Of a stretch of DNA of 64,000 nt, positions 38,194 through 52,652 are shown one piece after another. This DNA is from Oceanicella sp. SM1341. Lineage in GTDB: Bacteria; Pseudomonadota; Alphaproteobacteria; Rhodobacterales; Rhodobacteraceae. The position numbers and the translations under genes are program-made. Position 1 is the first letter of the stretch. Every line of letters starts with the position of its first letter. The notes beneath the pieces were generated by a model. It saw nothing but the letters and a program-made list of their open reading frames with translations, was not told the DNA's origin and searched no databases. Location of the stretch: the NCBI RefSeq assembly GCF_003448965.1, contig NZ_QRGC01000028.1:1-64000 (forward strand). The letters run 5' to 3'.

Positions 38194-38807
38194 GACAGGT
38201 CGTGATGTCCCTGGAGAATTTCTCCTCCGCCGCCCCGCGCCAGGCCCCGCGCCCCACGGTGGACGCAGCCGAGATGGAGCGCGCGCTCACCCGGGCGCGC
38301 AGCGAGGCGCATGCCCGCGGCTACGAGGAGGGGGCTGCCGCCGCGATGGCGGCCGGCGATGCCGAGCAGCGCCTGCTGCTGGGCCAGATCGCCGAGGCAC
38401 TGGCCGATTTCGACATCGCCGGGCAGGAGGCGCGCGCCGCGGTGCTGCGCGCCCTGCACCCGCTGCTGCGCGCCTTCGTCGGCGCGGTGAGCCCGGCCCT
38501 CGCCCGCGCCGGCCTCGCCCATGAGATCGCCGACCGGCTGGAGGCGGCGCTGCGCGAGGCCCCGCCGGAGCAGGTGGCGATTCTCGTCGCCCCGGAGATG
38601 GCCGAGCGGCTGCGCGCCACGCTCGCCCCGGGGGTCGACATCCGCCCGGACCCGGAGCGCCGGGCGCTGGAGGCCCGCATCGCCTGGGCCTCGGGGTTCG
38701 ACGAGATCGATCTCGAGGCCAGCATGGCCGGCGCGCTCGCGGCGGTGGACCGGTTCCTCGCCGAGGGCGGCGCGACCGATGAGACAAGGAAGCAGATCCA
38801 TGGATGA
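38190..38807 (+). CDS. fliH: Flagellar assembly protein FliH
   Basis: FliH is the peripheral stalk and negative regulator of the FliI ATPase. The 205-residue protein is helical, with LTRARSEAHARGYEEGAAAA and the C-terminal vacuolar-ATPase-E-like part ending IAWASGFDEIDLEASMAGAL. The N-terminal SLENFSSAA resembles FliH starts in Rhodobacterales. It overlaps fliF by four bases (ATGA) and fliN by eight. FliH sequences diverge widely, so the name rests on size, composition and position between fliF and fliN. Confidence 0.85.
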   Translation: MRQVVMSLENFSSAAPRQAPRPTVDAAEMERALTRARSEAHARGYEEGAAAAMAAGDAEQRLLLGQIAEALADFDIAGQEARAAVLRALHPLLRAFVGAVSPALARAGLAHEIADRLEAALREAPPEQVAILVAPEMAERLRATLAPGVDIRPDPERRALEARIAWASGFDEIDLEASMAGALAAVDRFLAEGGATDETRKQIHG

Positions 38808-39120
38808 GCAGGACGACATCACTCCCGAGGCGGGCCTGCCGGCCATGGAGCCGGCGCAGAACCGGCGCCGCTCCAGCGCGGTGCTCGGGGTGCCGATCGA
38901 GGTGATCATCTCGGTGGGCAAGGCCCGGCCGCTGGTGAGCGAGCTGGTGAACCTGCGGCGCGATTCCGTGCTGCCGCTGGACAGCAAGATCGAGGACCCG
39001 GTGGAGATCTACATCGGCGAGCGGCTCATCGCGCGCGGCGAGCTGCAGGAAATGGATGGCGACAGCGGCCGGCTCGGCGTGCGTCTCACGGAAATCGAAG
39101 ACCTCTCGAATGGCATCTGA
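38800..39120 (+). CDS. fliN: Flagellar motor switch protein FliN
   Basis: FliN is a C-ring protein. The 106-residue product has the SpoA domain: AVLGVPIEVIISVGKARPLV, LRRDSVLPLDSKIEDPVEIY and GERLIARGELQEMDGDSGRL. ATG 38800 has AAGGA upstream and lies inside the end of fliH. The acidic N-terminal 20 residues show no CheY-binding EIDALL-type motif. Partner proteins FliM (50563) and FliG (39952) are in the window. Confidence 0.95.
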   Translation: MDEQDDITPEAGLPAMEPAQNRRRSSAVLGVPIEVIISVGKARPLVSELVNLRRDSVLPLDSKIEDPVEIYIGERLIARGELQEMDGDSGRLGVRLTEIEDLSNGI

Positions 39121-39955
39121 CCCCCCCTGCTGCCGCCCGTCCCGGCCGGGGCGGGTCCCGGCGCATGTCCCGGTGCCGCGGCCCGTGCCTGTGCCCCTGC
39201 CCCTGCGCGGGCTGGTGCCGGTCCTCGTGCTCGGCCTGGCGCTGCTCCTCTGCGCCGGCCCCGCGGCGGCCCAGCAGTTCACCCTCGACCTGGGCGAGAC
39301 CGGGGCGGAGGGCGGCTCGCTCACCGGGCGGGCGATCCAGCTCTTCGCCATCGTCACCCTGCTGAGCCTCGCGCCCGGCATCGCCATCATGGTCACCTGC
39401 TTTCCCTTCATCGTCACGGTGCTCTCGATCCTGCGCCAGGCGGTGGGCGTGCAGCAGGCGCCGCCCAACATGCTGATCGTGAGCCTCGCGCTGTTCCTCA
39501 CCTGGTTCGTGATGGAGCCGGTGTTCACCGAGGCCTGGGAGAGCGGGGTCTCGCCGCTCATCGAGGGCACGGCCGAGCCGGAGGCGGCGCTGCGCGCCAC
39601 CGCCCTGCCGTTCCGCAGCTTCATGGAGGCGCGGGTCGACCCGGACACGGTCGCCGAGATGCAGGCCGCCGCCCCCGCACGCCTCGCCGGGGCCGGGCCG
39701 GACGACCCGGTGAGCTTCGGCGTGCTCGTGCCCGCCTTCCTGCTCTCCGAGGTCACCCGCGGCTTCGAGGTCGGCTTCCTCGTCTTCCTGCCCTTCCTGG
39801 TGATCGACCTCGCCGTGGCCTCCATCCTGATGTCCATGGGCATGATGATGGTGCCGCCGGCGGTGGTCTCGCTGCCCTTCAAGCTGGGCTTCTTCGTGCT
39901 CGCGGACGGCTGGAGCCTGCTCGCCGGCGCCCTGGTGCGGAGCTACGGCACATGA
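39110..39955 (+). CDS. fliP: Flagellar export gate protein FliP
   Basis: The 281-residue precursor has an N-terminal signal-like segment (VPVLVLGLALLLCAGPAAAQ), a known FliP feature. The core motifs are MVTCFPFIVTVLSILRQAVG, VQQAPPNMLIVSLALFLTWF, PAFLLSEVTRGFEVGFLVFL and SMGMMMVPPAVVSLPFKLGF. The first 40 residues before the signal are Pro/Arg-rich and longer than usual, so the true start may be further in. As annotated, ATG 39110 overlaps fliN by eleven bases. Confidence 0.95.
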   Translation: MASDPPCCRPSRPGRVPAHVPVPRPVPVPLPLRGLVPVLVLGLALLLCAGPAAAQQFTLDLGETGAEGGSLTGRAIQLFAIVTLLSLAPGIAIMVTCFPFIVTVLSILRQAVGVQQAPPNMLIVSLALFLTWFVMEPVFTEAWESGVSPLIEGTAEPEAALRATALPFRSFMEARVDPDTVAEMQAAAPARLAGAGPDDPVSFGVLVPAFLLSEVTRGFEVGFLVFLPFLVIDLAVASILMSMGMMMVPPAVVSLPFKLGFFVLADGWSLLAGALVRSYGT

Positions 39956-41037
39956 GCGCTCCCGACAATCTCCCGGCGCTGGCGCGCCAGTCCCTCGCCC
40001 TCGCCCGGATCAACGGCGAGGAGCGGACGACGGACGAACTGACCCCGACCCAGAAGGCGACGATCATCCTCGCGGCCCTCGGGCCCGTGCAGGCCGCCGG
40101 CGTGCTCAAGGAGCTCGGCGAGGCCAATGTCCGCCGCTTCGCCCGCACCATCGCCACCATGGGCCGCATTCCCGCCCAGGTGCTCGACCAGGTGAGCCAG
40201 GAATTCCTCAACGAGCTCGGCGGTGACTACGACGTCTCCGGCGGCATCGTCACCGCGCGCAAGATCCTCTCCGAGGCGCTCGACCGCGAGGATTACGACC
40301 GCATCATGGAGGACGTGCAGGGCAATGTGCGCCTGTCGATCTGGGACAAGCTGGGCAATGCCCCGGTGGGCTCGCTGGCGAATTTCATCGCCGCCGAACA
40401 CCCGCAGATCGGCGCCGTGGTGCTGGGGCGCATGCGCGCCGACCGCGCCGCGCGCGTGCTCGAGCGCCTGCCCGGCGAGATCGCCCATATCATCGTGCTG
40501 CGCATGAGCCGGGTGCCGCGGGTCGACCACGTGGTGCTCGAGCAGGTCAAGCAGGTGATCGAGGAGGAATTCCTCTCCGTCATCCAGCGCGAGAGCGGCA
40601 CGAAGAAACCGGCCGAGCTGCTGGCCGGACTGATGAACCACGTCTCCAGTGCCGCGCGCGAACAGTTCCTCGCCCAGCTCGAGGAGGACGAACCGGTCTT
40701 CGCCGCCGAGGTGCAGCGGGTGATGTTCACCTTCGGCGACATCGTGGCCCGCGTGGTGCCGCGCGACATCACCCAGATCACCCGCGAGCTGGAGGAGCCG
40801 GTGCTGATGGCAGCACTCAAGACCGGGATGGAGACCAATCCGAAGGTGGTGGAATTCATTCTCGGCAACCTCTCCAAGCGCCTCTCGGAGCGCATGAGCG
40901 AGGATCTCACCGCCATGCAGGCCCCGCCGCTGAAGGAAGGCGAGGCGGCACAGGCCGAGCTGGTGAAGGCGATCCAGGCCCTGGCGCAGCGTGGCGCGAT
41001 CCGGCTCAACCAGCCCGAGGCCGCGGACGAGGACTGA
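39952..41037 (+). CDS. fliG: Flagellar motor switch protein FliG
   Basis: FliG couples the stator to the rotor. The 361-residue protein has an N-terminal FliF-binding domain (TPTQKATIILAALGPVQAAG). The middle domain has the EHPQ motif in FIAAEHPQIGAVVLGRM. The C-terminal torque domain carries charged residues in VVPRDITQITRELEEP and LSKRLSERMSEDLTAM. Its ATG overlaps the fliP stop by four bases. It ends the operon and is followed by a strong terminator. Confidence 0.96.
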   Translation: MSAPDNLPALARQSLALARINGEERTTDELTPTQKATIILAALGPVQAAGVLKELGEANVRRFARTIATMGRIPAQVLDQVSQEFLNELGGDYDVSGGIVTARKILSEALDREDYDRIMEDVQGNVRLSIWDKLGNAPVGSLANFIAAEHPQIGAVVLGRMRADRAARVLERLPGEIAHIIVLRMSRVPRVDHVVLEQVKQVIEEEFLSVIQRESGTKKPAELLAGLMNHVSSAAREQFLAQLEEDEPVFAAEVQRVMFTFGDIVARVVPRDITQITRELEEPVLMAALKTGMETNPKVVEFILGNLSKRLSERMSEDLTAMQAPPLKEGEAAQAELVKAIQALAQRGAIRLNQPEAADED

Positions 41038-41277: not shown

Positions 41278-41658
41278 TCAGCTGAGCGCCCCGAGATGGG
41301 CTTCGAGCGCCTGGCGCATGTCCGCCGCACTGAAGGGCTTGGCCACGAACTGGTCGACGAGGTCGGCCGTCGCCTGGTCGCGGTAGGCATCAGAGGTGGC
41401 CAGGAACACCGGGATCCGGTTGAACACCGGGTGGCTCTTGATCTTGCGCGCCAGGTCCAGCCCCGAGAGGCCGGGCATGTTCAGGTCCGAGATCACCACG
41501 TCGAACATCTTGGTGTTCATCACGTCGAGGGCGCCTTCGCCGGTGGCGGCGAGCGAGACGTCGACGACACCGATATGCTTGAGGGCCTGCCTGGCAAGTC
41601 CCCGCATGGTCTGCTGGTCGTCGACGACGAGGACTTTGAGGGATTTGGCTGCGGGCAT
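41278..41658 (-). CDS. cheY: CheY-type chemotaxis response regulator (distal gene)
   Basis: The 126-residue single receiver domain has the acidic pair Asp13-Asp14 (VVDDQQTMRG), phospho-acceptor Asp58 in VVISDLNMPGLSG and Lys107 in VAKPF. It lacks an output domain, so it acts as a diffusible signal or phosphate sink. It is the last gene of the fliM-che operon, downstream of cheB. A second CheY is encoded at 49935. Which one binds the motor cannot be told from sequence. Confidence 0.95.
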   Translation of the reverse strand: MPAAKSLKVLVVDDQQTMRGLARQALKHIGVVDVSLAATGEGALDVMNTKMFDVVISDLNMPGLSGLDLARKIKSHPVFNRIPVFLATSDAYRDQATADLVDQFVAKPFSAADMRQALEAHLGALS

Positions 41659-41686: not shown

Positions 41687-42775
41687 TCACATGGCCTGGC
41701 GGGCGGACCCGGCGCTGCCCTGCGCCGCGATCCGCTCCGCGAGAGCGGGGATGTTGAGTTCCTCGTTCACGGCGCCGAGCTGCATCGCGGCCTTGGGCAT
41801 GCCGTAGACGACGCAGCTCTCCGGCGACTGGCCGAGGCAGCGCGCACCGGCCTGGCGCATGGCCAGCATCCCGTCCGCGCCGTCCCGGCCCATGCCGGTG
41901 AGGATGACGCCGAGCGCCTGTTCTCCCGCGGACTGGGCCACGGAATGGAACAGCCGGTCGACCGAGGGGCAGTGGCCCGAGACCGGGTCCGTGCCGCCGA
42001 CCTGGACAATCAGCCCGGCGCCGCTCCGCGTCACGGTCATGTGCCGGTCACCCGGGGCGATGCGGATCATCCCGGCCCGCAGGGGCTCGCCGTCACGGCC
42101 CTCGGCCACGTCGAGCCCGGTCTCGGCGGCGAGCCGGCCGGCGAAGCGCTCGGTATAGCCCGCAGGCATGTGCTGGGTGATCAGGATCGGCAGGGAACAG
42201 CGCCGCCCCAGGGCCTGGAAGAGCTGGCCGAGCGCGCCCACCCCTCCGGTCGAGGCGCCGATGGCGACCATGCGCCGGCCGGTGGGGGCAGCGGTGACCG
42301 CCGGGCGCCGCGCGGCCACGGCCGCGACGGCAGCGGGCGCGGGTGCACGCACCGCGCGTCGCTGCACCTTCGCCGCCGCCGCCACCCGCACCACGCTGCG
42401 CAGCAGCGGGCCCCAGGCCGCGGTGGCCTGCGGGCTGTCTGGCTTGGCGATCGCATCCACCGCCCCGATCGACAGCGCCTCCAGCGCCGTCTCGGTGCCG
42501 CGGGCGGTGAGCGAGGAGACCATCACCACCGGCGTGGGGCGCAGGGTCATGATCTTCTCGAGGAAATCGAGCCCGTTCATCCCCGGCATTTCCACGTCGA
42601 GGGTGATCACGTCCGGGTCGAGGTTGCGGATCATCTCGCGCCCCTCGCCGACATGCGCGGCGAGGCCGACGACCTCGATGTCGCCATCGCCCGAGAGGGC
42701 GGAGCGGATCATCGCCCGCATCAGCGAGCTGTCGTCGACGACCACGACGCGGATGGGGCGGCCCCGGCCCGGCAT
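41687..42775 (-). CDS. cheB: Chemotaxis methylesterase/glutaminase CheB
   Basis: CheB removes methyl groups from the receptor during adaptation. The 362-residue protein has a receiver domain with Asp60 (DVITLDVEMPGMNG), an Ala/Arg-rich linker at about residues 130-165, and the catalytic domain. The last contains the active Ser in VAIGASTGGVGALGQLF, the His in LITQHMPAGYTERFAG and the Asp in GVILTGMGRDGADGM. Its start overlaps the cheD stop by one base. Confidence 0.97.
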   Translation of the reverse strand: MPGRGRPIRVVVVDDSSLMRAMIRSALSGDGDIEVVGLAAHVGEGREMIRNLDPDVITLDVEMPGMNGLDFLEKIMTLRPTPVVMVSSLTARGTETALEALSIGAVDAIAKPDSPQATAAWGPLLRSVVRVAAAAKVQRRAVRAPAPAAVAAVAARRPAVTAAPTGRRMVAIGASTGGVGALGQLFQALGRRCSLPILITQHMPAGYTERFAGRLAAETGLDVAEGRDGEPLRAGMIRIAPGDRHMTVTRSGAGLIVQVGGTDPVSGHCPSVDRLFHSVAQSAGEQALGVILTGMGRDGADGMLAMRQAGARCLGQSPESCVVYGMPKAAMQLGAVNEELNIPALAERIAAQGSAGSARQAM

Positions 42776-43371
42776 CAGAACAGCTCCACGCCGCCGGCCT
42801 TCGGCGCGGCCTGGGCCTTGGTGCGCAGCGCCATTTCCTCGTTGCGCAGGCGGCGGTTGTCGGAGATCGGCAGCTTCAGCACCGAGGCGCGGCCCGAGTC
42901 GGGGAAGAAGAACACCCGGCGCGCCCGGTCTCCGCCGAGGTCCTGGGCGGTGATGCGGATGCCCTCGCGGCGCAGGTAATCGGCCACGAAGCGCGAGTTT
43001 CGGTCGCCCACGGTCTCGGCCGCGGAGACGTCGATCACGTTGGCACCGCCGAAGACCTTCGCCTCCAGCCGGCCCTTGGAGCCGCCGCGCTTGAGGATGT
43101 CGTTGATCAGCACTTCCATCGCGTGCACGCCGTAACGGGCCGATTTCTGGTCGGAATTCGTGTCACCGGGCAGCAGGAAATGGTTCAGCCCGCCGATGCC
43201 GAGCTGCGGGTCGCGGATGCAGGCCGCCACGCAGGAGCCCAGCAGGGTGACGAGGGCGAGATCCTTCTCGTCGGTCACGGCATGGAACCCGGGCAGGACC
43301 GTCTGGGTCATGGCGTTGATCTTGGGGTCCCAGAAATGGCCCTGGCGGCCGCGGTCGGCAGCGGTGCTCAT
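42775..43371 (-). CDS. cheD: Chemoreceptor glutamine deamidase CheD
   Basis: The 198-residue protein has the catalytic cysteine in LVTLLGSCVAACIRDP, the active histidine in IGGLNHFLLPG and the family segment RYGVHAMEVLINDILKRGGS. CheD deamidates receptor glutamines and interacts with CheC or CheY in many bacteria; no cheC is seen here. ATG 43371 has AGGAGA six bases upstream. It lies between cheR and cheB. Confidence 0.95.
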   Translation of the reverse strand: MSTAADRGRQGHFWDPKINAMTQTVLPGFHAVTDEKDLALVTLLGSCVAACIRDPQLGIGGLNHFLLPGDTNSDQKSARYGVHAMEVLINDILKRGGSKGRLEAKVFGGANVIDVSAAETVGDRNSRFVADYLRREGIRITAQDLGGDRARRVFFFPDSGRASVLKLPISDNRRLRNEEMALRTKAQAAPKAGGVELF

Positions 43372-43394: not shown

Positions 43395-44219
43395 TCAGCA
43401 GGACAGAAGCTTGGGGTGTTCGCCGAGAAGCGATTCCGAGTGACCCAGGTAGAGAGCGCCGTGCGGCGCGAGCAGGTCGGCGAAACGGTCGACGATGCCG
43501 AGCTTGGTCTCGGTGTCGAAATAGATCAGCACGTTGCGGCAGAAGATGGCGTCGAACGGGCCCTTCACCGGCCATTGGTGCAGCAGGTTGAGCTGGCGGA
43601 AGCGGATGGGCGCCTTGAGCACCGGGCGCATCTCGAGCGTGCCGTCGGGCCGCTGGCTGGCAGCGGCCGAGAGCACCGCGGGGGGCACGCCGGTCACCCG
43701 GTCGGCGGCATAGACCCCGGCCGCGGCGCGGGCCAGAACATTGCTGTCGAGGTCGGTGGCGAGCAGCCGGTAATCCCAGCGATGCGCCAGCCCGCCCGCC
43801 GCCTGCATGGTCATCTGGATGGTGTAGGGCTCCTCGCCCGTCGAGCAGCCCGCAGACCAGATGCGGAAGCGCGAGGCCCCCTTCGCCATGCAGGGCTCGA
43901 TCACCTCGCTGCGCAGGTGGTCGAAATGATGGCTCTCGCGAAAGAAGGAGGTGAGGTTGGTGGTGATGGCATTCATCAGCTCGCCGATCTCCGCCGCGCT
44001 TTCCGGGGAGTCGAGCAGGCGCAGGTAGCTGTCGAAATCCGTCAGCCCCAGCGCCCGCAGCCGGCGGCTGAGCCGGGTATGGACCATCTGGCGCTTGTGT
44101 TCCTTCAGCACGATGCCGGTGAGCTGGTAGACGCGCTCGGCGATGGCCTTGAAATTGGCCTCGGTCAGGACGGCGTCCTTGCCGGTTTCGGGCGAGGGGG
44201 AGCGGGGTGCGAGCGACAT
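43395..44219 (-). CDS. cheR: Chemotaxis methyltransferase CheR
   Basis: The 274-residue enzyme methylates receptor glutamates using S-adenosylmethionine. It has the helical N-terminal domain (LKEHKRQMVHTRLSRRLRAL) and NLTSFFRESHHFDHL. The SAM-binding motif is RIWSAGCSTGEEPYTIQM, followed by FDAIFCRNVLIYFD. The gene follows the receptor gene by two bases, and that receptor carries a C-terminal CheR-docking pentapeptide. Confidence 0.97.
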   Translation of the reverse strand: MSLAPRSPSPETGKDAVLTEANFKAIAERVYQLTGIVLKEHKRQMVHTRLSRRLRALGLTDFDSYLRLLDSPESAAEIGELMNAITTNLTSFFRESHHFDHLRSEVIEPCMAKGASRFRIWSAGCSTGEEPYTIQMTMQAAGGLAHRWDYRLLATDLDSNVLARAAAGVYAADRVTGVPPAVLSAAASQRPDGTLEMRPVLKAPIRFRQLNLLHQWPVKGPFDAIFCRNVLIYFDTETKLGIVDRFADLLAPHGALYLGHSESLLGEHPKLLSC

Positions 44220-44221
44220 GT

Positions 44222-47200
44222 TCAGAACTCCGACCAGTCGTCATCGTGCGGCTGCGAGGCCGCGGGAGCTGCGGCCCGGGGCCGGGCGGCGGGGGCCTGG
44301 GGCGCCCGGGGCAGCGGGGTGGCAGGCTTGCCGCCGGGCCGGGGCGGGGCGGCTTTCGCCGGGGCGGGCTTTGCCGGCGCCGCTGCGGGTTTTGCCGCTG
44401 CGGGCTTTGCCGGAGCCGGGGCGGGCTTCGGCGCGGCGGGAGCTTTCGCCGGCGGCGCAGGGGCCCGGGAGGAGGCGGGGGCCGCCCGGCGGGCCCGGGC
44501 CAGCCGCTCCCATTCCGCGTCCTGGTGCCGCTCGCCCGGGGTGGCGGAGGGCGCGGAGGCCGGGCGGCGCGCGGCGGTGTCTGCCGGCGCGGCGCCGGCC
44601 ACGGGCGGCAGGTCGGTGGCGGTTTTCCCGGTGCGGAACACGCCGATCAGCGCGCCGAGCTCGCCGGCGATCTCGGTGATCTGGCGCGCCGAGCCCGCAC
44701 TCTCCTCCGCGGCCTGGGCATTGGCCTGGGTGCGCTGGTCCATGCTGCTGACCACCGAGGAGATCTCCTCGATGCCGGTGGACTGCTCGCGGCTGGCGTT
44801 GGAAATCTCCTCGATGGTCTCGGCCACGCGGCCGACGGATTCCACGATGCCCTTGAGCGAGGTGCCGGTGCCCTTCACCAGTTCCACGCCGCGCGCCACA
44901 TGGGCCGAGCTGTCCTGGATCAGGTCCTTGATGTCGCGCGCCGCCTGGCTGGAGCGCTGCGCGAGGGTGCGCACCTCGGAGGCGACCACGGCGAAGCCCT
45001 TGCCGGCATCGCCCGCCCGCGCCGCCTCCACCGCCGCGTTCAGCGCCAGCAGGTTGGTCTGGAAGGCGATGGAGTCGATCACCGCGGTGATGTCGGAGAT
45101 CTTGCCCGCACTCTCCTCGATCTCGCCCATGGCCGAGACCGCGTTGCCCACCACCGCCTGGCCCTCGCTGGCCCGGCCCGCGGCATCCCGGGCGAGCCCG
45201 GTCACCTTGGCGGCGTTCTCGGCGCTGGCGCGCACGTTGGCGGTCATCTCCTCCATGGTCGCGGCCGTCTCCTCCAGCGAGGCGGCCTGTTCCTCGGCGC
45301 GCTTGGCGAGATCGGTCGCCCCGGTGAGGATGGCGCGGCTGCTGTTGGTCATGCGGCCCTGGGCGGCGGAGAGCCGCGTCACCAGGTCGCTCAGGGTCTC
45401 GAGGCTGCGGTTGGTGACCTCGGCGAGGCGCTGGTACTGGCCGCCGCGCGCAGCGTCCATGCGCCGGGTCATGTCGCCCTCGGCCAGCGCGCCGAGCACG
45501 CCGTCGAGCTCGGCGAGGAAGCCGCTCACCAGCTCGCCGATCCGGTTCACCCCCTGCGCCGCCTCGCGGATGAACCCGTCCTGGCTCTCCACCTCCATGC
45601 GGCGGGAGAAATCCCCCGCCCCGATCGCCGCGATCATCTGGGAGATCTGCTGCTCGGCCGCGCGCTGGCGGGTGCGCTCGGTCCATTGCGTGACGTAGCC
45701 CAGCAGGCTGCCGTCCTCCAGGTGCACCGGGGCGAGGATCATCTCGAAGACCCGGTTGTCGAAGGCAAGCTCGCTGGTGACCGGGCTCTCCATCACCTCG
45801 AGATTGCGCCGCTCCAGCACGCCGCCGCGCCCGAACGTGTCGAGGTAGCGGCCGATGAACCGGCCGTCCCAGCCCGGGATCTGCTGCTGGAAGAAGCCGC
45901 GCGAGCTCTCCAGCGCCTTCTTCAGCGCGGTGTTGAGATAGACGATCTGGCGGTTCTCGTCGGCGAGCAGGAACAGCGCGGAGGAACTCTCCACCGCCGC
46001 CCCCACGCGCTTGGCCTCGGCGGAGGATTCGTGGATGGCGAAGAGCGCGCGCGACAGCTCGCCGATCTCGTCGCGCCGGGTGGCGGCGGGCACCTCGGCC
46101 GGCTCGCCCTCCGCGAGCTTCTTCACCGCGCCGGTGATGCCCAGGATCGGGCCGGTGAAGCTGCGCGACAGCAGGTAGCCCAGCAGCGCGGCGCCCAGCA
46201 CCAGCAGCGCCGAGATGCCCAGGATCCGCAGCCCCAGCGCCCGTACCGGGGCCAGGAACACCTCCTCGGGCACCTGCGAGACCATGCGCCAGGGGATGGT
46301 GGCGCCGGGCATCTGCGGCACCGGGGCAATGGCGACATGCGCGGTTTCGCCGGTGAGCCCGGTCGCGGTGCCCACGCCCCCTTCCGGCGCGCCGGCATCG
46401 AAGCGGGAGGCGAGGATGTCGTTCTCCGGCGTCAGGCTCGTGTCGCTGCGCAGCAGGCCGTCCGGGCCGACGAGAAAGGAATAGCGCCCGGTCTCCGGGT
46501 CGTCCTCCGCCTCGAACAGGCTCTCGATCCGATCGGAGGGGATCTGCGCGGCCATCACCCCCTCGAGCGCGCCGGACGCGCTCCAGACCCCCAGGGCCAT
46601 GAAGCTCGCCGGTGCGCCGGCGCTCGGCCCGTAGGGGCGGAAATCGGAGAAGGCGACGCCGCCGCCCGGACCGGCCTCCCGCACCCGGGCATAGACCTCG
46701 CCCAGGCCGGAGGCGGCCAGCGGCCCGGCGGAGAGGTCATCGCCGAAATCCGCTTCCTTGAACACGGTGTAGAGCACCTGGCCCGCGGGGCCGACCAGGA
46801 AGAGGTCGTGGTAGCCGCGGCTTTCCTGGAAGGCGCGCAGGCCCGGGTGCCAGAGGGCATGTGCGGCGGAATAGGCCGAACCGTCGCCGGCATCGTCCAG
46901 CGCCTGGCGGCTGCCGGCGGGATTGGGGTTGTCCTCGAGGTAGCGCCGGCGCAGCGCGCCCGCCTCCCCCGCCGCCCAGCCCTCGCGGAAGGCGGCGATC
47001 CCGCCGCCGGCCCGCACCGAGCCCGCCAGGTACGCAAGGTCGTTCCGGACCTCGCCGAGATACGCAGCCACCGCCGCCGCCTCGCGCCGGACCCGGGCAG
47101 TGAGGTTGTCCTCGGCCCGCGTCACCGCCGCTTCCCGCGCGTTGAAGTAACTCATGCCCCCCACCGCCGCGGCGACGACGAGGCACAGCCCCGCCACCAT

Positions 47201-47254
47201 GAAGGTGAGCTGGGTGCGCAGGCTGCGGGACAGGACGGCGGGCAGGAGACGCAT
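44222..47254 (-). CDS. Methyl-accepting chemotaxis protein with PAS domain and CheR tether
   Basis: The 1010-residue receptor has TM1 at about 14-34, a Cache-like periplasmic sensor (to about 340; [20 protein letters not shown]) and TM2 at about 343-363. A HAMP domain to 416, a PAS-like domain at 420-525 ([20 protein letters not shown]) and a second HAMP-like part follow. The signalling domain at 640-870 has the hairpin tip [20 protein letters not shown]. After it come about 130 Pro/Ala/Lys-rich residues and the terminal DDDWSEF, whose last five residues fit the xWxxF CheR-docking pentapeptide. It lies between cheW and cheR. Confidence 0.96.
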
Positions 47255-47285: not shown

Positions 47286-47774
47286 TCAGAGGGTCTCGAA
47301 GCCCTGGGTGACGAAGAGCGAGGCGAGGTCGAGCAGTGCCACCATCACCTCCTCGGTGTTCACCAGGCCCGAGATGGCGCTGGCGTCCCCCTCCCCGGCC
47401 GAGGACGGCACCGGGCGGATCTCGTCGGCGGAGACCGAGACGATGTCGGAGACCGCGTCGACCAGCACGCCCACGGTCTGCTCGCGGATGGCCACGATCA
47501 CCACCACGTGGTTCTCGGTCGCCTCGGTCATCTCGCCGCTGAAGCGCGCGCGCAGGTCATGCACCGGCACGATGGTGCCGCGCAGGTTCAGCACGCCGCG
47601 GGTGAAATGCGGCTGGTTGGGCAGCGCCGTGGTCGGCGACCACTGCTTGATCTCGCGCACCTGCTTGATGTCGACGCCGTAGACACGGTCGCCCACCAGG
47701 AAGGTCACGTACTGTTTCGTGCGTCCGCTGCCCTGGGCCTGCGGATCGTCGAGTTCGAGGCCGAAGTCGCTCAA
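47286..47774 (-). CDS. cheW: Chemotaxis coupling protein CheW
   Basis: The 162-residue protein has the CheW fold signatures [40 protein letters not shown] and [20 protein letters not shown]. It links the receptor to CheA in the signalling array. Its ATG overlaps the cheA stop by four bases. An extra N-terminal segment of about 18 residues is acidic and probably unstructured. Confidence 0.96.
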
Positions 47775-49918
47775 TGGTACATCTCCATGCCGGAAGACGC
47801 CCCGGGGCCGCCCCTTACGAGCGCGGGCACGTCTAGGATGAGGGCGACGCGGCCGTCGCCGAGAATGGTGGCGCCCGAGACACCCTCGACGCGGCGGAAG
47901 TTCGCCTCGAGGCTCTTGAGCACCACCTGCCGCTGGCCGATGAGTTCGTCTACGAGGAGCGCCACCAGGCCGTTGGTCTCGGTGTCGACCACGATGGCCA
48001 TGTCCTCCTGGCGCACCGGCCCCTCCACCCGCAGCGCCTGGCGCAGCGAGATCAGCGGCAGGTACTGGCCGCGCAGGAACATCACCCGGGAGCCGTTGGG
48101 CAGCGCCTCGGTCTGTTCCTCCTCGATCCGGAGCGCCTCGATCACCGAGGAGAGCGGCAGGATGAAGCGCTGGTCGCCGACGCAGATGGTCATCCCGTCG
48201 AGCACCGCGAGGGTGAGCGGCAGGGTGATCATGAACTTCAGCCCCTTGCCCGGCACGTTCTTGAGCGTGCAGCGGCCGCCGAGGGTCTGGATCTTCTTCT
48301 TCACCACGTCCATGCCCACGCCGCGCCCGGAGACCGAGGAGATCTCGGAGGCGGTGGAGAAGCCGGGGTGGAAGATCAGGTTGTCGATGTCGTCGGGGGA
48401 GAGCTGGTCCTCGGGCTGCACGAGACCCTTCTCGATCGCCTTGGCCAGCACCCGGTCGCGGTTGATGCCGCGGCCGTCGTCCTCGATGGAGATGATCACC
48501 CGCTCGCCGCGGTGCTCGGCGGCGAGGCGGATGGTGCCGATGCGCGGCTTGCCGATCTGCTCGCGCTCGTCGTTGCCCTCCAGCCCGTGGTCCATCGAGT
48601 TGCGCAGCATGTGGGTGAGGGGCTCGGCGAGCTCCTCGATCACCGTGGTGTCGACCTCCGTATGCTCGCCCGAGAGCACCAGGCGCGCCTCCTTCTTCAG
48701 CGTGTCCGACAAATCGCGCACCACGCGCGGCATGCGCTGGAACACCGACTTCACCGGCTGGGCGCGGATCGCCATCACGCTTTCCTGCAGCTCGCGGGTC
48801 TGGCGGGTCATGCTCTCCACCGCGTGGCCGAGCTCCAGGTTTCCGGAGGTGTCGATCTCCGAGAGCTTCTGCGCCATCACCGCCTGGGTGATGACGATCT
48901 CGCCCACGAGGTTCACCAGCCGGTCGATGCGCGGCAGCTCGACGCGCAGCGACTTGGCGATCTTGGGCTTTTCCACCGGGTGCTCGCCATCGTCGCCGCC
49001 GGAGGCGGGCTTGCCGCCCCCGTTCCTGCCGCCGCCGCCGCCGCCGGACGCGGCGGGCGGGGCCGCCGGCGGCGGGGCCGCGGCCGCGGTCGGGCGCGTG
49101 TCGGGTGCGGGAGCCGCCGGGGCCGCCGCCGCTGCCGGCGCTGCCGCCGGCGCTTCAGGCTCCCCCGCGGGGTCCGCCCCCTCCTCGGGGGCGGGCAGGA
49201 TCACCTCGATGTCGACGGCATGGCTGTAGAAGTCGAAGAACCCGTTGAGCGCCGTGGCCGGCGCGTCGCTCTCGAAATCGAGCAGCCAGGACAGGCCCGG
49301 GGCATGCAGGTCCAGCTCGCCCAGCGGCGCGATCTCCTCGGGCGCGGTGACCCGGCTGAGCCCGTGCGCCTTGAGCGCCCGGATCATCTTCAGCGGATCA
49401 TGGCCGGAGAAGAGGAAATTCTCCCCCAGCGTGAGACGGACGGAGAATTCGTGGAAACCGCCCTCCTCGAGCAGCTCCTCGACCACCGGGGCGGGGGCCG
49501 CCTCGGCCGGCTTCTCGGCCGGGGCCTCGAGGTTGCCCAGCTCGCGCAGCTCGCCCAGCACCCGCTCCACCCGCTCCTCGGGCAGGCTGCCCCCGTCGCG
49601 CGCGTGCTCCACCAGCACCGCGATCACGTCGCCGGCCCGCATCAGGATGCTGCACACCTCCGGCGTGAGCTCGAGCGTCTCGGAGCGCACCTGGTCCATC
49701 ACCGTCTCGAAGACATGCGCGAAGGCGATCAGGTCGCGGAAGCCGAAGGCCGCAGCGCCGCCCTTGATCGAGTGCACGGCCCGGAACGCGGCGTTCACCG
49801 TGTCCATCGACCCCTCCCCGTCGAGCAGCTCGTCCAGCCGCTCCTGCAGGTCGACCAGCAGCTCGGAACATTCCGAGAAGAAGATCGCCTGGTAGTCCTC
49901 AGCATCGTCCATCGCCAT
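47771..49918 (-). CDS. cheA: Chemotaxis histidine kinase CheA
   Basis: The 715-residue kinase has an HPt domain with His49 (AVHSIKGGAAAFGF), a response-regulator-binding region to about 240 and an Ala/Pro/Gly-rich linker to about 320. The dimerisation helices follow (LVNLVGEIVITQAVMAQKLS), then the ATPase domain with boxes HMLRNSMDHGLE, SIEDDGRGIN, PGFSTA and SGRGVGMDVV. A CheW-like domain is at the C-terminus. All catalytic boxes are intact. It is coupled to cheW and follows cheY by 16 bases. Confidence 0.98.
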   Translation of the reverse strand: MAMDDAEDYQAIFFSECSELLVDLQERLDELLDGEGSMDTVNAAFRAVHSIKGGAAAFGFRDLIAFAHVFETVMDQVRSETLELTPEVCSILMRAGDVIAVLVEHARDGGSLPEERVERVLGELRELGNLEAPAEKPAEAAPAPVVEELLEEGGFHEFSVRLTLGENFLFSGHDPLKMIRALKAHGLSRVTAPEEIAPLGELDLHAPGLSWLLDFESDAPATALNGFFDFYSHAVDIEVILPAPEEGADPAGEPEAPAAAPAAAAAPAAPAPDTRPTAAAAPPPAAPPAASGGGGGGRNGGGKPASGGDDGEHPVEKPKIAKSLRVELPRIDRLVNLVGEIVITQAVMAQKLSEIDTSGNLELGHAVESMTRQTRELQESVMAIRAQPVKSVFQRMPRVVRDLSDTLKKEARLVLSGEHTEVDTTVIEELAEPLTHMLRNSMDHGLEGNDEREQIGKPRIGTIRLAAEHRGERVIISIEDDGRGINRDRVLAKAIEKGLVQPEDQLSPDDIDNLIFHPGFSTASEISSVSGRGVGMDVVKKKIQTLGGRCTLKNVPGKGLKFMITLPLTLAVLDGMTICVGDQRFILPLSSVIEALRIEEEQTEALPNGSRVMFLRGQYLPLISLRQALRVEGPVRQEDMAIVVDTETNGLVALLVDELIGQRQVVLKSLEANFRRVEGVSGATILGDGRVALILDVPALVRGGPGASSGMEMYH

Positions 49919-49934: not shown

Positions 49935-50294
49935 TCAGGTCAGCTGGTCGACCAGTTTGAGAACCTGGTCGGGGTCGAAGGGCTTGGTGAGCCAGCCGGT
50001 GGCGCCCACCGCGCGGGCGCGCTGCTTGAGCCGGTCGGCGGTCTCGGTGGTCAGCAGCAGCATCGGCAGGCCCTGGCCCTCCGGCTCCTTGCGGGCGGCC
50101 TCGATGAAATCGAGCCCGTCCATCACCGGCATGGTGAGGTCGGTGATCACGATGTCGGGCTTGTGGGCCTTGAGCTGGTCCAGCGCCTCCTGGCCGTTGC
50201 CGGCCTCGTAGACGTCATGCCCGGCGCCGCGCAGGCAGTCGCAGAGCATGTTGCGCAGGGATACGGCGTCATCCACGGCCAGAATCCGTTTCAT
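49935..50294 (-). CDS. cheY: CheY-type chemotaxis response regulator (proximal gene)
   Basis: The 119-residue receiver has Asp8-Asp9 (LAVDDAVSLR), phospho-acceptor Asp52 in VITDLTMPVMDG, Thr82-Thr83 and Lys104 in WLTKPFDPDQ. It is the third gene of the fliM operon, overlapping the STAS gene by four bases and just ahead of cheA. It is the more canonical of the two CheY proteins and the likelier motor signal, though this is inference. Confidence 0.96.
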   Translation of the reverse strand: MKRILAVDDAVSLRNMLCDCLRGAGHDVYEAGNGQEALDQLKAHKPDIVITDLTMPVMDGLDFIEAARKEPEGQGLPMLLLTTETADRLKQRARAVGATGWLTKPFDPDQVLKLVDQLT

Positions 50295-50566
50295 TGGCAG
50301 AACTCCATCTTCATCAGGTCCTGGAACAGACCGAGATCCGAAAACGCATCGACAAACCCGGCACTTGGCCGGATCACGCTGATCTTGCCGCCCTCCTCGG
50401 CCAGCGCCCGCCCCACGGCGGTCAGCGCCAGCACGAAGGCGGTGGGCAGGTCCTCGACGCCGCTCGCGTCGATGACCGGAGCGGCGGGGGTCTGCCGCAT
50501 CTCGGCCAGGAAGGCCTCCGCCGCCGGCAGGGTCGGGCGGGCCGGTAGGGTGTGGGTCGGTGTCAT
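50291..50566 (-). CDS. STAS-domain protein in the fliM-che operon
   Basis: The 91-residue protein has the STAS pattern APVIDASGVEDLPTAFVLAL, followed by GGKISVIRPSAGFVDAFSDL and a C-terminal helix. In anti-sigma-factor antagonists a Ser at the DxSG-type loop is phosphorylated; here the loop reads EDLPTA with Thr as the only candidate. It overlaps both fliM (four bases) and cheY (four bases), so it is made together with them. STAS proteins occur in alphaproteobacterial che operons, but their role there is poorly defined. Confidence 0.82.
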   Translation of the reverse strand: MTPTHTLPARPTLPAAEAFLAEMRQTPAAPVIDASGVEDLPTAFVLALTAVGRALAEEGGKISVIRPSAGFVDAFSDLGLFQDLMKMEFCQ

Positions 50567-51528
50567 GCGCCGGTCTCTCCTGTCAGGCTGCGGATGTGCT
50601 TCACGAAATCGGGGTCGGGCGGCAGGGTGAGCTTCACCGCCTTTTGGCCCTCGAAGGCGCCGAGCCGGCCCACGGCCAGCGGCACCTCGTCCTGGCCGGG
50701 CAGCATCAGCTCGATGCGGCTGCGCCCCGAGGCCGGGATCTCGAGCACATCGCCCTCCTTCCATTCCTGGATGGCGCCGAGGTCGAGATGCAGGCGGTGG
50801 ATGACGGAGGTGACGCGCACCGGCGCCTCGCGCGCCGCCCGGCTCATGCGGTTCGACCACAGGTCGAGCAGGTTGCGCTCCGAGGCCGAGGAGGTGCGGC
50901 GCTGCGAGGCCGCCTTGAAACTGTCGAGCACCGAGAGGGGGATGACCATGTCGAAATCCCCCGAGCGCGCCGCCTCGCCGATGTCCAGGCTCACGTTGAG
51001 CACCAGCACGTCGGCATTGTCGGGGGCGATGCGGGCCATGGTGACGTGCTGCTCGAACTGGCGCAGCGACATCCACTCCAGCTCCGGCGCGCCGAGGTAG
51101 ATGCTGATCGCCTGGGTGAAGGCGCCGATCAGCGCATTGACGAAATCCGAGCACAGCGCGCAGTCGAGCGGCGTGATCGAGCGCGCGGTGGGCACCGGCG
51201 ACTGCTCGGTGTCCCCGCCCATGCGCAGGTCGACGATGTGGTAGATCAGGTCGTTGGAGATGTTCACCAGCGCCGAGGCCGGGGAGTTCTTCACCTCCAC
51301 CACGCCCAGCATCGCCGGCACGGGGATCGATTCGAGCACCCGGGAGAGCTTGCGCACCTCGCAGTCCAGGATGATCGAGGAGGTGATGGTGCGCAGCAGC
51401 CGGCGCAGCCGGTCGTCGAGGATCTTGGCGAAATCCTCCCCGATCATCTCCACCTGGGGGATCGGCGATCGGCTCACGCGCGCCGAGCTGATCTTTCGCG
51501 CAACGATGGTCTGCCCGGCTTCGCTCAT
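50563..51528 (-). CDS. fliM: Flagellar motor switch protein FliM without the N-terminal CheY-binding peptide
   Basis: FliM joins FliG and FliN in the C ring. The 321-residue protein has the FliM middle domain (SIPVPAMLGVVEVKNSPASA-like region, IVDLRMGGD) and a C-terminal SpoA domain (RLHLDLGAIQEWKEGDVLEI). ATG 51528 has AGGGGA about six bases upstream. Only about 13 residues precede the core. The usual N-terminal LSQEEIDALL-type peptide that binds phosphorylated CheY is missing, and the open frame further upstream does not encode it. It heads the che operon. Confidence 0.93.
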   Translation of the reverse strand: MSEAGQTIVARKISSARVSRSPIPQVEMIGEDFAKILDDRLRRLLRTITSSIILDCEVRKLSRVLESIPVPAMLGVVEVKNSPASALVNISNDLIYHIVDLRMGGDTEQSPVPTARSITPLDCALCSDFVNALIGAFTQAISIYLGAPELEWMSLRQFEQHVTMARIAPDNADVLVLNVSLDIGEAARSGDFDMVIPLSVLDSFKAASQRRTSSASERNLLDLWSNRMSRAAREAPVRVTSVIHRLHLDLGAIQEWKEGDVLEIPASGRSRIELMLPGQDEVPLAVGRLGAFEGQKAVKLTLPPDPDFVKHIRSLTGETGA

Positions 51529-51650
51529 CTGGTCCCCTGCCTCGAACGGCTTCTCCGCCACCCGGAGCACCGCACCCGTTCGGGGGGGATCTCCGGGGCC
51601 CGGGCACACCAGCGGCCCGGGAACGAGGCCGGAGTTTTCGCCGCTCTCTA

Positions 51651-51666: not shown

Positions 51667-51791
51667 CGCGCGCCGATTGCATCCGCGGAAAGCCTGTCGA
51701 ATTGTCGCGATCCCTTCGCGGCCGCAGCAACCGCTTGGCAAGCTTTCCGCCCGAGCCTGCGGGCGGGACAGTGACGCCGAGGAGAGTGAGC

Positions 51792-52652
51792 GTGGCCAAG
51801 GGAGACAACACGCGGCCGATCATCAAGCGCAAGAAGATCGTCGCGGGCGAGGGCCATCACGGCGGCGCCTGGAAGGTGGCCTATGCCGATTTCGTCACCG
51901 CGATGATGGCCTTCTTCCTGCTCATGTGGCTGCTCAACGCCACCACGGAGGACCAGAAGAAGGGCCTGGCGGACTATTTCAGCCCCTCCGTGCCGATCTC
52001 GCGCCTCTCCTCGGGGGGCGACGGGCTGTTCGCCGGCAAGACGGTCGCCGCCGACGACGAGCTCACCGAGAACGGCATCGGCGCGCGCGAGGATTACCGC
52101 GGCGACGGCACCAACGACGAGAAGGAGCCGGACAAGGATTACGAGAGCACCGACCCCAGCCAGGAGGACCAGGCCTTCTCCGCCATCCAGAACCTGCTGC
52201 GCGGCGACAGCGGCGAGAGCGACGTGGAGGACGAGCTGCTCGCCCATATCTCCACCCGCGTCACCGACGAGGGGCTGATCATCGAGCTGATCGACCGCGA
52301 CGGCCCGCCGCTGTTCCGCGCCGGCACCGCCGAGCCCTCGCCCAAGATGCGCGCCCTGCTCGACCTCGTGGCCGAGGTGGGGGGGCTGCTGCAGAATCCC
52401 GTTGCCGTGGAAGGACATACCGATGCCCTGCCCTTCGCCGGCCAGGGCTACGGCAACTGGGAGCTCTCCACCGACCGCGCCCAGGCCGCCCGCCGCCTGC
52501 TGGAGACCGACGGCATCGACACCGCCCGCTTCCGCCGCGTCACCGGGCACGGCTCCTCCTCCCCCGCCGTGGAGGACCCGCTCGCCCCGCAGAATCGCCG
52601 CATCGCCATCACCTTCCTGCGCACCGACCTGGAGCGCGCGAAAACGCCTTGA
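51792..52652 (+). CDS. motB: Flagellar stator protein MotB
   Basis: MotB anchors the stator to peptidoglycan. The 286-residue protein has a basic N-terminus and the channel helix WKVAYADFVTAMMAFFLLMW with Asp33, the proton-carrying residue. The C-terminal OmpA-like domain contains VAVEGHTDALPF and NWELSTDRAQAARRLLE. I chose the GTG at 51792, seven bases after AGGAG; a GTG at 51786 is less well spaced. The partner MotA gene is at 33433. Confidence 0.95.
   Translation: MAKGDNTRPIIKRKKIVAGEGHHGGAWKVAYADFVTAMMAFFLLMWLLNATTEDQKKGLADYFSPSVPISRLSSGGDGLFAGKTVAADDELTENGIGAREDYRGDGTNDEKEPDKDYESTDPSQEDQAFSAIQNLLRGDSGESDVEDELLAHISTRVTDEGLIIELIDRDGPPLFRAGTAEPSPKMRALLDLVAEVGGLLQNPVAVEGHTDALPFAGQGYGNWELSTDRAQAARRLLETDGIDTARFRRVTGHGSSSPAVEDPLAPQNRRIAITFLRTDLERAKTP

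Follow-up and report, generated by a model that had tools for sequence, protein, structure and literature searches.

The N-terminal peptide of FliM is usually regarded as the first contact that phosphorylated CheY (CheY~P) makes with the flagellar motor. In Salmonella, CheY contacts this helix, the middle domain of FliM (FliM-middle), that of the neighbouring FliM and the middle domain of FliG (FliG-middle), but makes no contact with FliN; FliM residues 34-45, located behind the CheY-binding helix, pair with a FliN dimer (PMC11528121). A surface for direct docking thus exists on FliM-middle and FliG-middle. In Caulobacter, NMR showed binding of CleD to FliM residues 47-62 (ASERILNQDEIDSLLG), and a change in FliM, ID57WA, abolished reversals (PMC5677366).

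Two-CheY modules are described from Sinorhizobium meliloti and Agrobacterium fabrum. S. meliloti CheS is reported to bind CheA and to speed the loss of phosphate from CheY1, a phosphate sink, with CheY2 as the motor CheY (PMC12654446, PMC8225110). CheS has only a slight effect in A. fabrum, where FliM is bound about 5 times better by CheY2 than by CheY1 (PMC8225110). Within the order Rhodobacterales, chemotaxis by the Fla2 flagellum of Rhodobacter sphaeroides, a native alphaproteobacterial flagellum with its own che operon, works via CheY1, CheY2 and CheY5 according to a review (PMC7277832); chemotaxis by a native Rhodobacterales motor is thus real on that evidence. The corresponding R. sphaeroides FliM2 is assumed here to be of the short type discussed below.

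The fliM-chemotaxis operon

The window, the whole 64,000-nucleotide stretch of Oceanicella sp. SM1341 DNA that was analysed, contains the following features.

51783-52652, plus strand: motB, divergent from fliM, start approximate
51533-51538, minus strand: AGGGGA, a ribosome-binding-like sequence 5' of the fliM ATG
50563-51528, minus strand: fliM, 321 aa; the protein has the middle and C-terminal domains but lacks an EIDxLL peptide at its N-terminus, and only 12 residues follow the core
51457-51528, minus strand: FliM residues 1-24, a flexible N-terminus with a weak helix at 8-14 (IVARKIS), aligning with GIRAIINSALV, which lies just behind the docking peptide in canonical FliMs
50291-50566, minus strand: STAS-only protein resembling CheS in its position and domain (STAS_2 match of 28.2 bits, just below the Pfam cut-off of 29.2, E 2.2e-6)
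49935-50294, minus strand: CheY-I, adjoining the STAS gene and cheA, read as a phosphate-sink CheY1
47771-49918, minus strand: cheA, the sole CheA found in the genome
47286-47774, minus strand: cheW
44222-47254, minus strand: methyl-accepting chemotaxis protein
43395-44219, minus strand: cheR
42775-43371, minus strand: cheD
41687-42775, minus strand: cheB
41278-41658, minus strand: CheY-II, last gene of the operon, read as the motor CheY
39952-41037, plus strand: fliG
38800-39120, plus strand: fliN, 106 aa; the N-terminal tail is long and acidic (MDEQDDITPEA...)

The genes run on one strand in the order fliM-STAS-cheY-cheA-cheW-mcp-cheR-cheD-cheB-cheY, with overlaps or with gaps of at most about 30 nt, and the order is identical in Paroceanicella profunda. 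The initial annotation had placed two CheY genes and a full chemotaxis pathway in the fliM operon, and the complete che set with CheY-I and CheY-II agrees with it. The cheR frame (43395-44219) stops about 10 residues before its P. profunda counterpart, with the CheR domain complete. P. profunda, the nearest named relative, carries its flagellar and che genes on plasmid pD4M1D (L035, 137 kb), where exopolysaccharide genes adjoin them, and by analogy the window contig (88.7 kb) may be a plasmid too.

The position of the STAS gene directly before cheY-I and cheA fits the gene order of CheS, which is known from the equivalent position in rhizobial che clusters (PMC12654446). The likeness to the Sinorhizobium and Agrobacterium module extends to the presence of two CheYs; the window differs in that fliM precedes the STAS gene within the operon. 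Because of the shared STAS-cheY1-cheA arrangement, the STAS protein is best read, by position and domain, as a probable CheS and CheA partner rather than as a contact of CheY at the motor. The latter had been suggested for it, and the CheA-binding role described for rhizobial CheS explains the protein better (PMC12654446). CheY-I is read, on the same analogy, as the likely phosphate sink.

FliM start, domains and fold

The fliM ATG at 51528 is preceded by AGGGGA (51538-51533) at a spacing of 4 nt. The annotated start of the P. profunda FliM (93% identity, plasmid pD4M1D) is the same, and the FliM of MAG J013 (61% identity) has a methionine at the matching position, with a dissimilar upstream frame in a by-eye comparison. 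All three observations agree with the start given in the initial annotation. Its placement of the core about 13 residues further on also stands, as the Pfam FliM match begins at residue 14 (E 1.7e-19, 71 bits vs a cut-off of 27). Residues 233-301 match FliMN_C (E 2.5e-8, 34.2 bits vs a cut-off of 23.8). The score against TIGR01397 (110.5 bits, E 9.1e-32) does not reach the NCBIfam equivalog cut-off of 219.6, and by this score the window FliM is a divergent member of the family.

An AlphaFold2 model built from 25 sequences reaches a mean pLDDT of 78.5; its core is predicted with confidence from about residue 26 onwards, and pLDDT is below 50 at residues 1-7, 9-20 and 236-239. A fold search of the PDB placed FliM chains from the Salmonella C-ring at the top (E down to 4.8e-18, TM about 0.5), among them those of the C-ring with CheY (8wiw and related, E 2e-17). 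The model as a whole is not superposable on full-length Salmonella FliM (rmsd about 23 to 25); against the FliM middle domains of Thermotoga, Vibrio and Helicobacter the rmsd is about 2.3 to 2.5. The window protein is thus predicted to have the FliM fold. With canonical Caulobacter crescentus FliM it shares the middle and C-terminal domains, the predicted fold and the expected place in the C-ring. It lacks the CleD-binding peptide (ASERILNQDEIDSLLG) of the Caulobacter protein and the CheY-binding N-terminal helix of the Salmonella protein.

Absence of the CheY-docking peptide

No EIDxLL motif occurs at the N-terminus of the window FliM or in the 97-codon frame upstream of it, in accordance with the initial annotation, and the tail of FliN, a protein for which the same had been claimed, holds none in a six-frame scan either. 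Across all six frames of the 64 kb, the sole EIDALL-like match is LSPDDIDNLI, an ordinary stretch inside CheA at 48403, and relocation of the motif to another protein of the window was rejected on this basis. A second FliM elsewhere in the genome was rejected as well: a profile search of the 113-contig assembly (99.34% complete) gave one PF02154 match, and the two FliMN_C matches in the genome are the window FliM and FliN. It is scarcely credible that a missed start or a frameshift hides the peptide. The upstream frame is indeed open for 97 codons, but no upstream frame contains the motif, the P. profunda start is identical, and comparable short FliMs are found in J013 and throughout the order.

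One FliM, one FliN and one CheA were found in the genome. Any flagellum steered by the pathway is therefore this one, and it is reasonable that CheY reaches the motor by another contact. This much of the earlier inference stands, but the trait is found across the order and is no peculiarity of the operon.

Distribution in Rhodobacterales

A profile of the window FliM family matched 142 of 149 Rhodobacterales genomes. FliMs of 140 were read (G070 and G101 were left out), and four weak or partial ones (G105, G084, G005 and G056) were dropped, leaving 136, of which 82 come from genomes with CheA and 54 from genomes without it. CheA was scored genome-wide by PF02895, a count that may include CheAs serving no flagellum. 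EIDxLL occurs within 80 aa before the core in 0/136 of these proteins, after 0/129 in a first pass. Outside the order, with an identical pattern, it is present in 61 of 70 FliM loci drawn from 69 of 132 matching genomes: 30/30 of the best-scoring, 20/20 of the middle and 11/20 of the low-scoring picks. Some low-scoring loci (such as G154, G288, G293, G326, G230, G205 and G319) and fragments were left out. In the canonical FliMs of the class the peptide is RILNQDEIDSLLGF or near it, and several of the nine misses have near-motifs such as GIDALF and SIDKLF. The alignment with FliMs of the order and of the rest of the class, which had been proposed beforehand, thus places the absence of the peptide as a property of Rhodobacterales, not a peculiarity of the window operon. 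With 0/136 order FliMs carrying the motif, the chemotactic members must steer via a different CheY contact. Among the matches listed in a search of the open-licence literature, none describes the missing peptide in this order or the C-terminal tail discussed below, and an earlier mention is possible.

CheA is absent from 57 of the 142 genomes with a FliM match, and flagella without che genes seem common in the order. Some Rhodobacterales have a second, different FliM-like gene (L029, G070:C3:86832-87602), with weaker second matches in G020, G023, G036, G039, G067, G078, G105 and G138. In several genomes (for example G067:C45 and G138:C5) a FliN-like gene lies a few kilobases away, and such genes may form a further C-ring set, of a flagellum or of a secretion system.

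The window FliM fits the Rhodobacterales type, with no EIDxLL and a short N-terminus containing a [VIL]LxRK-type stretch. The window stretch TIVARKISSARVS aligns with canonical GIRAIINSALVS, which directly follows the docking peptide. R11 is conserved in at least 90% of 27 FliMs. Genomes without CheA supplied 6 of these, and apart from two close relatives the 27 are only 16-27% identical to the window protein. Their starts were hand-picked in sight of the N-terminal stretch, which makes M1 conserved by construction; the conservation of R11 is independent of the start. A permissive [VIL]LxRK-type pattern occurs in 79/82 FliMs from CheA-containing genomes (41 expected from shuffled letters) and 53/54 of the others (29 expected), and a tighter pattern in 72/82 (27.5 expected) and 48/54 (18.8 expected). 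Because the short N-terminus is kept in genomes without CheA, a role in chemotaxis only is unlikely, and the stretch is probably structural. It would be the equivalent of Salmonella FliM residues 34-45, to judge from alignments made without a Salmonella sequence. The Rhodobacterales FliM would then begin at the FliN-binding strand, and only the CheY helix and linker would be gone.

How CheY may reach the motor

CheY-II is read as the motor CheY from its last position in the operon and its similarity, which suggest rather than fix this role. Its similarity to S. meliloti CheY2 is only moderate (1p6q, E 2.2e-17), and the sole other Rhodobacterales CheY-II tried (L087) is closer (E 7.3e-33). Between the window and J013, CheY-II is 89% identical, with the stretch RIPVFLATSDAYRDQATADLVDQFVAKPFSAAD (RIPVF to FSAAD) unchanged. 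CheY-I, at 88%, is as conserved, and conservation therefore does not single out CheY-II. The FliMs of the window and J013 are 61% identical overall, but 70/87 residues are identical at 26-112. Matches to CheY-II were found in 94 genomes; compared with the best 29 of these Rhodobacterales homologues, its helix 4 region is 3 residues shorter.

The established features are the absence of the peptide, its spread over the order, the predicted FliM fold and the intact single che pathway. The best overall explanation is an order-typical FliM without the tethering helix, on whose core, together with that of FliG, CheY-II~P would dock directly; we prefer it tentatively, at somewhat less than even probability. 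In such a scheme, fliM would lack the codons for the N-terminal CheY-tethering helix and linker and begin at the segment that follows the docking peptide. CheA would phosphorylate both CheYs, and CheY-I and the STAS/CheS protein would drain phosphate. CheY-II~P would switch the motor from the groove between FliM-middle and FliG-middle via a reshaped helix-4/strand-5 face, and the acidic FliN N-terminal tail possibly helps it to dock.

The main alternative gives that FliN tail the whole task: having taken over the role of tether in the window lineage, it would catch CheY-II~P. Net acidity over the first 20 FliN residues is 6, 5 and 6 in the window, P. profunda and J013, vs 0 and 3 in the relatives without CheA, G141 and G110, and the tails of most other Rhodobacterales FliNs are much shorter (30 loci read, starts by eye). 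However, the acidity comparison covers five sequences only, the tail is also long in the two relatives without CheA, it holds no EIDxLL motif, and Salmonella CheY makes no FliN contact (PMC11528121); we consider this alternative unlikely. Somewhat less likely still is a replacement in place, in which the [VIL]LxRK-type N-terminus would itself be a new CheY-binding peptide of reversed charge. The stretch is flexible in the model, with a weak helix, is conserved among proteins of about 20% identity, and lies at the extreme N-terminus, as the enteric docking peptide does. Window CheY-II also differs in alignment from E. coli CheY at several positions of the motor face. This was the explanation favoured first, but it was weakened by the genomes without CheA, which keep the stretch (53/54, and 48/54 by the tighter pattern, well above the shuffled expectations), and by its alignment with a canonical region outside the docking peptide.

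It may also be that the pathway does not act on motor switching at all, and controls speed, the stator or gene expression, or is decaying. No flagellar protein in the window has an EIDALL-like dock, and with 57/142 FliM-matching genomes lacking CheA, loss of che genes is common. We give this as low a probability as the replacement in place. No component is missing from the operon, which P. profunda and, as far as it was seen, J013 also conserve; FliM is less conserved than either CheY; and R. sphaeroides Fla2 is under CheY control (PMC7277832). For the window we therefore retain docking of CheY-II~P straight onto the core of FliM and FliG, with the FliN tail as the main rival.

An acidic C-terminal tail in other Rhodobacterales

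A long tail of low complexity, in many cases with DLP/ELP repeats, is common at the C-terminus of Rhodobacterales FliMs. In the set of 126 complete tails (75 with CheA, 51 without; 10 incomplete tails were left out, and the zero-length tail of G054, whose FliM matched in two pieces, was kept), median length is 86 with CheA vs 54 without, and median net acidity 15 vs 5. At least two [DE][LIM]P motifs are present in 43/75 tails from genomes with CheA vs 5/51 from those without. There are exceptions in both directions: 54/75 FliMs accompanied by CheA have an acidic tail and 21/75 do not, and 14/51 of the others have one.

In phylogenetic regressions (PGLS on a FliM core tree), CheA is associated with tail net acidity (p 1.2e-5), length (p 5.1e-4) and motif number (p 2.1e-4; 0.0081 at lambda near 1). 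The acidity effect persists when length (p 0.0024) or core acidity (p 5.6e-7) is added as a covariate, and control regressions show no CheA effect for the core (p 0.96) or the 45 residues before it (p 0.84). These regressions, with floored branch lengths, complete tails and controls, are the ones relied on; an earlier one for net acidity yielded p 3.1e-8 with lambda at its best value and p 0.95 with lambda at 1, the latter taken as a numerical failure caused by near-identical tips. When the trait was simulated independently of CheA, the observed difference was reached in 0/2000 runs (128 rows, some tails incomplete). Comparisons of independent sister pairs, the strictest test, point in the same direction on average but were not significant: for the acidic tail, an average of 3.3 pairs with and 0.2 against the association (15 pairs, median p 0.25), or 5.1 and 0.1 in an earlier run (17 pairs, median p 0.0625), and for the repeat tail 3.8 and 0.0 (17 pairs, median p 0.125).

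The acidic tail may thus be a relocated CheY tether, and is a good lead, as a possible substitute in many chemotactic relatives. It is absent from the window lineage. Only 12 residues, with a net acidity of -1, follow the core of the window FliM, and the FliMs of its two nearest relatives, P. profunda and J013, also lack that tail; all three genomes have CheA. With neither the N-terminal peptide nor the C-terminal tail, this lineage has neither tether. In a fuller account, to which we give a rather low probability, the Rhodobacterales tether would have moved from the FliM N-terminus to an acidic tail at the C-terminus, retained chiefly under chemotaxis. The Paroceanicella lineage would then have gone on to a tether-free switch, in which CheY uses a reshaped helix 4 to dock directly on the core of FliM and FliG.

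What appears new here, from sequence comparison, is an order-wide switch variant without the N-terminal tether and the association of the tail with CheA. An order that carries out chemotaxis without the FliM peptide is a natural experiment on the purpose of the tether, and a C-terminal tail that tracks CheA is a concrete candidate replacement for it. A lineage without either tether would show whether docking on the FliM/FliG core suffices for motor switching.

Some tails also contain short motifs. Those resembling EIDxL occur in 4/82 C-terminal tails from genomes with CheA (1.3 expected from shuffles) and 1/54 from those without (0.5 expected), and were rejected because they are too few and two of the four come from a single genus. 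In two genomes of one genus with CheA (G003 and G028), the FliMs L167 and L173 have EIDALSD, a sequence near the canonical CheY peptide, at the C-terminal end. An AEISQLAGL-type motif near the FliM end is found in 9/54 genomes without CheA and in 2/82 with it (carriers include G027, G033, G076, G091, G103, G121, G128, G129 and G135), and could bind another response regulator or motor partner.
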